Source of the DNA: Candidatus Zixiibacteriota bacterium
GTDB lineage: Bacteria; Zixibacteria; MSB-5A5; RBG-16-43-9
Assembly: GCA_030692925.1 (NCBI GenBank)
Contig: JAUYBY010000062.1
Location: 1-56,517, forward strand
Direction of reading: 5' to 3'
DNA length: 56,517 bases
In this document: one piece after another, positions 50,849-55,168 of the stretch
How positions within the stretch are numbered: the stretch's first letter is position 1
Layout of the letters: the number at the start of each line of letters is the position of its first letter
Made by a program: the position numbers and the translations under genes
Notes under the pieces: generated by a model
What the model was told of the DNA's origin: nothing
What the model saw: only the letters and a program-made list of their open reading frames with translations
The model's database searches: none

Positions 50849-51775
50849 ATGAAGTTTATTAATCAAATTATCTGCGGCGATGCCCTTGAGATTATGAAAC
50901 AGCTCAAGCGGGAAAGCATTCATTTAATTATAACAAGTCCTCCTTATTGGAATCTGGTCGATTATGGTTTTGAAGGACAAATTGGTCAGAGCTCTTATGA
51001 ACAGTATATTCAGGATCTTTTAGACATCTGGATTGAAGCTGATCGGGTATTAATCCCTAATGGAAAATTATGTATAAATACTCCTATAGTCCCAATAAAA
51101 AAAGAAGTCATAAATGACCAGCATACTCGCCATATTAAAAATATAAACAACGACATCGAATACTCAATTTTAAATAACACCTCTTTTCAAAGATTCAGCC
51201 TCTATATCTGGCAGAAACAAACTACTGAAAAGATGTTTGGGAGCTATCCTTATCCGCCCAACATCTACGAAAACAACACTATTGAATTCATGAATGTCTT
51301 AGTGAAGCCTGGAGAACCAAGGAAAATACCTAAAGAGGTTAAAGAATATAGTAAGTTGAGTATGGAGGAGTGGATGGATTTGACCAGACAAGTATGGTAT
51401 ATTTATCCTGAAGATGTAAGCAGAAGTGGAGGCCATCCAGCTCCTTTTCCGGTAAAGTTGCCGGCAAGACTAATCGCTATGTATACCTTCGGAGCGGTGA
51501 AGAACCTTGACTTTAAGGGCGATATAATCCTAGATATGTTCAATGGAACTGGTGCCACTTGTGTGGCGGCCAAGGCAATGGGGAGGAGATATATAGGGAT
51601 AGATAAATCAGAAGAATATTGCAAAATTGCCAGGCAAAGAGTTGAGATTACTCAGGTCAGTAAGATTGACCTGTTTACTAAGAAGATAAAGTTTGAAAAT
51701 AACCAGAAGCAATATGATCTTTCCTTAGAGCAAACTGTAAAACCCAGCCTATCAAAAGTTATCCGTGATAAATAA
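50849..51775 (+). CDS. Type II DNA methyltransferase (beta class, N4-cytosine or N6-adenine)
   Basis: 308 residues. Motif IV TSPPYW (30-34) lies near the N-terminus and motif I DMFNGTGATCVAAKAMGRRYIGID (about 228-251) near the C-terminus, the order of beta-class MTases; SPPY favours N4-cytosine. The middle segment (about 80-190) is the likely target-recognition region and has no recognisable relatives by eye. A cognate endonuclease-like gene overlaps by 11 bases, so this is the M of an R-M pair. The flanking tRNA-Leu and lower GC suggest an acquired island. The recognition sequence cannot be predicted from sequence. Confidence 0.9.
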   Translation: MKFINQIICGDALEIMKQLKRESIHLIITSPPYWNLVDYGFEGQIGQSSYEQYIQDLLDIWIEADRVLIPNGKLCINTPIVPIKKEVINDQHTRHIKNINNDIEYSILNNTSFQRFSLYIWQKQTTEKMFGSYPYPPNIYENNTIEFMNVLVKPGEPRKIPKEVKEYSKLSMEEWMDLTRQVWYIYPEDVSRSGGHPAPFPVKLPARLIAMYTFGAVKNLDFKGDIILDMFNGTGATCVAAKAMGRRYIGIDKSEEYCKIARQRVEITQVSKIDLFTKKIKFENNQKQYDLSLEQTVKPSLSKVIRDK

Positions 51776-53153
51776 AGATTATTGGAACAAATTCATTAAG
51801 TCGTTTACTACTGATAAATCCTACTGGTACGTCCCCAAAGGCAAGACAATCAATCAAGAAAATCTCTTTTTGTTAAGAGAGCAGTTAAAAATTTTAAAGA
51901 AATATGAGAAAAAAGACTGGCGTGAGTATCAGAAGGTTTACACAGATGAATTGAATAAGAAAAAACTAATAGAACACCGAGCCAAAGGTCAGAAACCCAG
52001 TGATTATACTGCAATCGCCAGAATGTTAAAGGTAATCTTTGATCTTTTAGGTGTTGCCTGGGTTGATAAGGAGAGCAAAGTATATATTACTTCAACTGGA
52101 GATGAGTTCATAAAAACCAACAAGCTTGACCAGATAGTTAAAAAACAACTTCTTAAATACCAGTTTTATAATCCCTCTTATAGAGAAGAATATTTTAGAT
52201 GTATAAAGCTCTTTCCTCATTTATTTCTTTTAGAGATTCTATTTGAATTTTATAAAACCGGAATTTCAAAAGATGAGTATGTTTTATCTGTCAGCCGTGC
52301 TAAGTCACATGAACAGCTATCCGAAAAGATCGAACTTATACGGAAATTCCGTGAATTGAGCAGAAGTCAAAGGGCAAGCCTAATAAGCAAATTAGAGAAA
52401 GTTAAGATAAAGCAAAAAGGTAAAAGTTCAAGACGCTCAAGCATCTACAACACGATTTTTCTTAACCATTCTTACTCGCTGAATTTTTTTACATATCCAG
52501 AATATATAAAAGTATCAAATAACAAAATCATTTTGGCAAAGAATAGGTTAAAGGAAGTAGAGTCTCTAATTAAAGAACATAGAGAAAAAGCAGTATATGT
52601 TGATTTCGAAAACGAGAAGGATTGGTTAGCCTTCTATGGGGACTTCGAGAAGGGTAGTTCTTATCTTAACGCTTTAAATTATTATGAAGACAAGATCAAC
52701 ATAAATAAATCTCTGGAGATATTCAGAGAGGCGAAAAAGAAAAACTTAATACCCCTGGAAGAGAAAGAAGAGGCTTATATTGAAGCCAGAATCAAAGAGA
52801 AGATGTTAGAGGACTTTTTAGAATTCAAATTAGACGAGTTGGAAAAGGGATTGACCTTGATTAGAAGACAATATCCTACTTTAGTTGGGCCCATAGATAT
52901 ACTTGCGAAAGACCTGAATGGCAACTATGTCGTAATAGAGCTTAAAAAAGGACGCTCTTCAGATAGAGTTTTTGGTCAGATAACCAGATACATCGGGTGG
53001 ATAAAAGACAACCTGAATCCTAATGTGCGAGGAATAGTTGTAGGAAGTCCTATAGAAGATAAATTAGTCTATTCAAGGAAAGGGTTAAATAATCTCGAAC
53101 GAGTCAAGTTGAAAGAATTTAATTTCTACTTCAAATTTTCAGATAAAGGTTGA
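51765..53153 (+). CDS. Restriction endonuclease with NucS/DUF91-like C-terminal nuclease domain
   Basis: 462 residues. The C-terminal ~95 residues form a PD-(D/E)xK nuclease: VGPIDILAKDLNGNYVVIELKKGRSSDRVFGQI, with Asp, Glu and Lys of the D...ExK site, resembling the nuclease domain of NucS/DUF91 proteins. Residues 1-360 are helix-rich (YRKLKYEKK..., ISKDEYVLSVSRAKSHEQLSEKIELIRKF) and unassigned, probably the DNA-recognition part. GTG 51765 overlaps the methyltransferase end by 11 bases, so M precedes R in one transcript. A type II enzyme with this domain order is not one I recognise. Function inferred from context and motif. Confidence 0.75.
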   Translation: MINKDYWNKFIKSFTTDKSYWYVPKGKTINQENLFLLREQLKILKKYEKKDWREYQKVYTDELNKKKLIEHRAKGQKPSDYTAIARMLKVIFDLLGVAWVDKESKVYITSTGDEFIKTNKLDQIVKKQLLKYQFYNPSYREEYFRCIKLFPHLFLLEILFEFYKTGISKDEYVLSVSRAKSHEQLSEKIELIRKFRELSRSQRASLISKLEKVKIKQKGKSSRRSSIYNTIFLNHSYSLNFFTYPEYIKVSNNKIILAKNRLKEVESLIKEHREKAVYVDFENEKDWLAFYGDFEKGSSYLNALNYYEDKININKSLEIFREAKKKNLIPLEEKEEAYIEARIKEKMLEDFLEFKLDELEKGLTLIRRQYPTLVGPIDILAKDLNGNYVVIELKKGRSSDRVFGQITRYIGWIKDNLNPNVRGIVVGSPIEDKLVYSRKGLNNLERVKLKEFNFYFKFSDKG

Positions 53154-53701: not shown

Positions 53702-53729
53702 TTGACTTTTTTTGTTCTTCTGTTATATT
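53702..53729 (+). promoter_or_regulatory. Promoter of the dockerin selenoprotein candidate
   Basis: TTGACT at 53702-53707, 16-base spacer, TATATT at 53724-53729. Confidence 0.5.
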
Positions 53730-53845
53730 GATTTTAAAACTGATTGTAGCCATCAGGAGGCAGCAACAGCAAGTTTTTTAGATAAATCTGGTGAACTATG
53801 GCAAAGTATGAACAGCAGTTCTGGAACAACAAAAGGAGGTAGGGA

Positions 53846-55168
53846 ATGAGCAACAAAGGTAAGCTTTATGGGGCTGTGGTCAGGGCTAAACTGTTGATCT
53901 TGCTTTACTTGGTTCTGATGGGGCTGATGGTATCTTCGGCAGCAGGTGAAGCCAGTAAGCCTGTTGTTTTCACTCATGCAGTTTTTGCAGAGCTGGCAAC
54001 AGCTACCTGGTGACAGTATTGCCCATATGCAGGTGCTGCATTAGAGAACATATACAGAAGCGGGAGCTATCCGTTTTACTTCGTTGCATTGGTCTCCGAC
54101 AAGGACATATACGCAAATGGCAGGATAACGGATTTCAACTTGTATGGTTATCCAACGGTTTTCTTTGATGGGGGTTATAAAGTCAGTGTTGGAGGTGGAT
54201 CCGGAAGCCAGGCAGCCTATACCGCCAGCATCAACAGCTGTGGAAACCGGCCAGTATCAAACGTAGATCTGAACCTGTCTTTTACCTGGCTGGGAAACGC
54301 CACCATGGATATAGTAGTTTCAGTCCAGAACAATGACACGAGCGATTATACCGGCTACTTGAGGGTATACGTGACTGAGGCTGTTTCCAAAATGGGCTGG
54401 AAGTACGATTATGGCGGGAAACCCATTGGTTCCGCATTCCTGGACTATGCGTTTGCCGAGAGCGTGCATGTAGCGGCAGGTGCGGTCTGGATGGATTCTA
54501 CCAGATGGAATGGGAATCTCCATTCGGATGGGTACGGACATACTTTCGGGAATATAATTCGCAGCAACACCACGGTGATAGCTGCGCTTTTCAACCCTCA
54601 GTGGCACCAGGGGTATGCATATCCGCCCAGCACCAATCCTTTTAATGCCTATTACGTGGACGACGCAGCCGCAGCCTGGATCAACGTGCCTCCCAATGTG
54701 CCTAACGACTCCCTGCCAAGAGATTCGGCGAAAGCGGTAAGTCCCTATATTGATCTCAGATGGACCGGTGGTGATTCTAACTACTTTGACAGGGTAGTGT
54801 ATGATGTTTATTTCGGCACGGTCGATCCACCACCCTTTGTGGTCAACAGGACTTCAGCCATGTACGATCCGGGAACGTTGCCTTTCGGCACCACGTATTA
54901 CTGGCAAATCGTCGCAAAAGATAACAGCGGCGATTCAACAGTGGGTCCCGTTTGGCGCTTCACGACCATTGCTCGTGGTGACTGCAACGCAGACGGGCTT
55001 AAAAATGTATCGGATGTGCTGTATCTGGTCAACTATCTGTTCAAGTATGGATCGCAGCCTAATCCTATGGCAGTCGGAGATGTCGATTGTGATACTCAAG
55101 TTAACATCAACGACATAATCTATTTAATCAATTATCTTTTCAAAGGAGGACCTCCACCAGGGTGTTAA
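53846..55168 (+). CDS. Putative secreted selenoprotein: thioredoxin-like UxxC domain, FN3-like module and dockerin
   Basis: Read through the in-frame TGA at 54011-54013, this is a 440-residue protein with Sec56. ATG 53846 follows AAAAGGAGGT with six bases between. Residues about 10-33 are a signal peptide (LLILLYLVLMGLMVSSAAG). Then comes VFAELATATW-U-QYCPYAGAALE: the TGA replaces the first Cys of a thioredoxin-like CxxC (UQYC). The fold continues with YPFYFVALVSDKD and the cis-Pro loop GYPTVFFDGGY (Pro103). An FN3-like module (DLRWTGG...TYYWQIVAKDNSG) and a type I dockerin pair follow (376-440). A SECIS-like hairpin follows the TGA. If TGA is a stop, only a 55-residue peptide is made. A nonsense mutation of TGC or TGT is the alternative. 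Confidence 0.7.
54011..54045 (+). promoter_or_regulatory. In-frame TGA with SECIS-like hairpin
   Basis: After TGA (54011-54013) the hairpin ATGCA (54027-54031) - loop GGTGC - TGCAT (54037-54041) forms, with a T-T mismatch just below it. GGT in the loop is exactly the seventh codon after TGA, the same position as in the classic fdhF element as I recall it. The lower stem is weak (GTAT/ATAC only). Confidence 0.6.

Follow-up and report, generated by a model that had tools for sequence, protein, structure and literature searches.

A predicted exported thioredoxin-like selenoprotein with a dockerin tail in a Candidatus Zixiibacteriota genome

Thioredoxin-like selenoproteins of prokaryotes

Prokaryotic selenoproteins are catalogued in 119 families in a 2026 review (PMC13188914), among them the Omp28-related selenoprotein GOS_C (NF045500), first predicted in 2008 from 74 ocean sequences (PMC2398784; listed in PMC13188914); DsbG-like and DsbA-like selenoproteins also figure there. 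The published limits for the bacterial SECIS element (bSECIS) are a loop of 3-9 nt, a stem of 4-16 bp, a G in the first two loop positions, a distance of 16-37 nt from the UGA and an MFE ≤ -7.5 (PMC13188914).

The gene considered here lies in the window, the whole 56,517-nt stretch of contig JAUYBY010000062.1 that was analysed. Its UGA codon 56 is very probably decoded as selenocysteine (Sec), guided by a hairpin, in a predicted thiol-disulfide oxidoreductase, presumably exported, that belongs to the thioredoxin superfamily; this reading is based on the equivalence of TGA and Cys among homologues, the sel machinery of the source genome, selection on the codons after the TGA, and the hairpin of the family.

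Reading frame and domain architecture

The open reading frame starts at ATG 53846 and contains one in-frame TGA, at codon 56 (54011-54013), after which 384 codons follow; the next in-frame stop is TAA 55166-55168 (Table 1). The TGA sits at the first Cys of a thioredoxin-like CxxC (TATW-U-QYCPYA), with GYPTVFFDGG downstream; these elements, together with the ribosome site and signal peptide reported in the initial annotation, are confirmed by direct reading. The 360 residues given there for the protein correspond roughly to the part after the TGA, the length with Sec being 440. A table-11 reading would split such genes in two at the UGA. Elsewhere in the window (50849-53153) a DNA N6/N4 methylase adjoins a NucS-C/YhcG-like nuclease with a few-base overlap, and the two look like a restriction-modification pair.

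Table 1. Features of the putative selenoprotein gene, in window coordinates
Feature	Position	Strand	Basis or remark
Sigma-70-like promoter match TTGACT-16-TATATT	53702..53729	+	consensus match only; 5 found in the region vs 3.3 expected
Shine-Dalgarno sequence AAAAGGAGGT	53831..53840	+	read directly; strong ribosome site
Putative selenoprotein gene	53846..55168	+	440 residues including Sec56, stop TAA; G001 orthologue shares the architecture and the TGA codon position
Signal-peptide-like N-terminus, residues 1 to about 35	53846..53950	+	hydrophobic stretch by eye; cleavage site inferred
Thioredoxin-like domain, about residues 36-135, U56-Q-Y-C59-P and cis-Pro loop GYP	53951..54250	+	profile of 22 relatives vs PDB
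TGA codon 56, putative selenocysteine	54011..54013	+	same column: TGA in 49 homologues, Cys in 37 others
SECIS-like hairpin ATGCAG-GTG-CTGCAT	54027..54041	+	6 bp stem, loop GTG starting +20 after UGA
Beta-sandwich-like domain, about residues 136-281	54251..54688	+	fold inferred; weak Omp28 match at residues 96-178
Fn3-like module, about residues 280-376	54683..54973	+	fold inferred; repeats of many multi-domain proteins are 40-54% identical
Type I dockerin, residues 378-431	54977..55138	+	PF00404 E=8e-7, above cut-off

In the PDB, the 22-member profile finds PDI, thioredoxins and enzymes like them (best E 8e-7), over a span that takes in the cis-Pro as well as UxxC, and positions E12, U/C19, C22 and P66 of the alignment (A2) are invariant, in keeping with the UxxC and cis-Pro of a thioredoxin fold; a Pfam search of the window protein itself gives no thioredoxin match. 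Omp28 (PF11551) reaches 15 bits (E=0.023) in the window protein, under its gathering cut-off of 34.9, and an AlphaFold model of the thioredoxin and beta-sandwich region from eight sequences has a pLDDT of 38, too poor to use. The dockerin assignment is made at 29.6 bits, against a cut-off of 22.9. The thioredoxin domain comes first in the window gene, in the same-genus orthologue (G001) and in G006; in most other class members and in an archaeal relative it follows the counterpart of the second domain.

Evidence for selenocysteine at codon 56

Relatives of the thioredoxin domain are present in 57 of 132 genomes of the class by whole-genome search, and the homologue set comprises 86 distinct domains, some of them Cys homologues of Bacteroidota, Ignavibacteriota and a single Thermoplasmatales archaeon. 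The first CxxC position is TGA in 49 of these and Cys in 37; in every homologue with an active-site stop (49/49) that stop falls on the catalytic-Cys column, so that chance is excluded as the source of this placement of the putative Sec codon, and TGA almost certainly serves as a Sec codon in dozens of other related genes of this class too, often alternating with Cys. The same-genus orthologue shares 73% identity and keeps the TGA, one of the two same-order copies has it, and G006 holds two copies, one with TGA and one with TGC. About 15 Sec/Cys switches (bootstrap 13-16) are needed on a tree that was built without the Sec/Cys column and is only partly resolved owing to its few columns; at least 5 switches are forced by well-supported branches. 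The closest relative found outside the class belongs to a Thermoplasmatales archaeon MAG (L006 3001-3747; 45% identity) and has Cys and a swapped domain order, which suggests gene transfer or misbinning.

The window hairpin lies within the published bSECIS limits for loop (3), stem (6), G in first position and spacing (19 nt), and outside them for MFE; it folds at -4.9 to -5.4 kcal/mol, a stability matched by 28% of synonymous shuffles, and a competing fold reaches -7.2. A loose hairpin of this kind stands after 13% of the window's TGA triplets, and 15 of 2101 triplets pass a strict test for the fdhF position, so the hairpin alone was rejected as proof. The single hairpin is weak, and the selenoprotein claim rests on the family. 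When a SECIS-like hairpin is defined by an energy of -3 kcal/mol or better, a loop start at +17 to +22 and a G within the first two loop bases, 45 of the 49 TGA members have one, against 5 of 27 class Cys members; the median folding energy over +10 to +33 is -9.1 vs -3.4 kcal/mol for the two groups (Mann-Whitney p=2e-9), and stability exceeds that of 95% of synonymous shuffles in 31/49 and 1/27, respectively. Two-sided changes occur in four of seven pairs in a 14-sequence subset, which was picked by hairpin position and therefore leans towards structure; this level of covariation is attained in none of 500 shuffles, and its score is 0.46 compared with ≤ 0.13 for slid pairings.

Release factor competes with UGA decoding in bacterial selenoproteins, and this, with the weakness of the window hairpin, speaks for UGA being mainly a selenium-dependent switch that acts mostly as a stop and lets the complete protein be made only with plentiful Sec-tRNA; such a switch is very unlikely, as it adds to Sec insertion without being a true alternative, and its truncated product would be just the signal peptide and first strand.

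Between the window gene and G001, pN/pS is 0.22 over the 361 codons after the TGA and likewise 0.22 for residues 35-55 before it; the signal-peptide-like part evolves fast (0.68), synonymous sites have nearly saturated (pS 0.69), and the window gene shows no disabling changes. This purifying selection implies that the part past the TGA is translated and selected. TGA is a normal stop in the code of the source genome and G006 carries a Cys paralogue, as would suit a pseudogene or a Cys gene recently hit by a nonsense mutation; however, the same-genus copy keeps TGA with synonymous divergence nearly saturated, purifying selection continues beyond it, and the same column holds TGA in 49 homologues, so that this origin is extremely improbable and for practical purposes refuted. 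A sequencing or assembly error at 54011-54013 might be suspected in a draft assembly of 112 contigs; its probability is negligible, as TGA at the same codon in independent genomes excludes a misread codon.

Sec insertion also requires the machinery, and selA, selB, selC and selD are all present in the source genome, in one cluster on contig C80 and all above curated cut-offs. The selC gene (C80:7343-7434; 65.6 bits) has the anticodon TCA (UCA) according to ARAGORN, and selD carries a TGA of its own at SSSGU-AAK, the known SelD Sec site. Across the class, selB is found in 116/132 genomes and tRNA-Sec in 105/132. A second RF01852 match (C54) was rejected as tRNA-Sec, being a tRNA-Ser. Downstream of the sel cluster (C80; L167 9931-11697) lies a dockerin-tailed, metallopeptidase-like protein with an HEFFH motif and a weak DUF6055 match. 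Homologues with Cys in the column would fit a UGA read as Cys or Trp through a code change or misacylated tRNA, a vanishingly unlikely reading given the complete selA-B-C-D set, the restriction of TGA to codon 56 in the window gene and to the Sec site in selD, and the hairpin that tracks TGA. The proposal of the initial annotation, that Sec56 is inserted and that the gene is not a pseudogene, is supported by the sel genes, by homologues that are not all Cys at this codon, and by the selection past the TGA.

Proposed function and comparison with known systems

In the proposed mechanism, SelB and tRNA-Sec would decode UGA codon 56 as selenocysteine under the guidance of the hairpin that follows it; once the protein is exported, its UxxC pair would react with other proteins outside the cytoplasm through their disulfides or thiols, with Sec56 as the likely attacking and Cys59 as the likely resolving residue. 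The C-terminal dockerin presumably binds a cohesin-bearing surface scaffold; dockerin matches number 50 and cohesin matches 11 in the source genome, and docking of the window protein to such a scaffold is therefore plausible. An open frame reported at 24,197 aa, a giant gene of some 72 kb, contains one of the cohesin matches (C11:15601-15777). Judged by eye, most class members have at their end a dockerin-like tail similar to D-x-x-YLINYLFKGGPAP, and 17/86 have a strict motif; relatives outside the class have other endings. It is possible, at somewhat less than an even chance, that the class as a whole makes surface-docked extracellular selenoproteins, in which Sec-based disulfide enzymes are plugged by dockerins into cohesin scaffolds, Sec is repeatedly gained and lost at one codon (about 15 switches), and the sel machinery is nearly universal. 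Sec oxidises easily, and its extracellular use on docked proteins raises the question of which reaction pays. Many replacements between Sec and Cys at one codon, within a class that keeps its Sec machinery, amount to a natural test set; the gain and loss of the hairpin and the cost of Sec are therefore open to direct study in this family.

Among described proteins, thioredoxin and protein disulfide isomerase share with the window protein the CxxC-P active site and cis-Pro, and their structures are matched by profile; the window protein differs in having Sec for the attacking Cys, in its predicted export and in its multi-domain build with a dockerin. DsbG-like and DsbA-like selenoproteins, which are presumably exported, are likewise thioredoxin-like with UxxC; however, their accessory domains differ, and neither type is detected in the window protein by Pfam or NCBIfam. 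E. coli fdhF, identified in E. coli genomes by a 100% identical match, encodes an unrelated protein, yet its SECIS hairpin, 13-28 nt after the UGA, also has GGT at codon +7 and a similar loop flank (TGCAGGT..CTGCA). The placement that the initial annotation had likened to fdhF holds, the loop starting at +19 in fdhF and +20 in the window gene, weak as it is as lone evidence; the likeness may be convergent.

The nearest catalogued family is NF045500, which has in common with the window family a thioredoxin-like UxxC with Sec at the first Cys, a SECIS-like element and mixed Sec/Cys membership; the window protein differs by its Fn3-like module and by the lack of an Omp28 domain above cut-off. The NF045500 profile scores 18.8 bits on the window protein, in the dockerin region only, against a cut-off of 200 bits that is reached in 0/194 genomes, and membership was rejected on this score. 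Same-order members in G008 and G010, which have dockerin tails, score 50-61 bits over 218-236 residues; shortly after selB, G008 (C1:2468000-2474500) carries a tandem run of four Omp28-like genes, each with TGA and a dockerin tail. A dockerin-linked extracellular selenoprotein was given as undescribed in the initial annotation, and no account of a selenoprotein with a dockerin tail came up in a search of open-access papers; the claim is narrowed by NF045500, in which an Omp28-related, thioredoxin-like UxxC protein is already catalogued. The window protein falls in a clade of 70 members separate from NF045500-type members (support 100/99), and the new part looks to be this mostly dockerin-tailed sister clade of NF045500.
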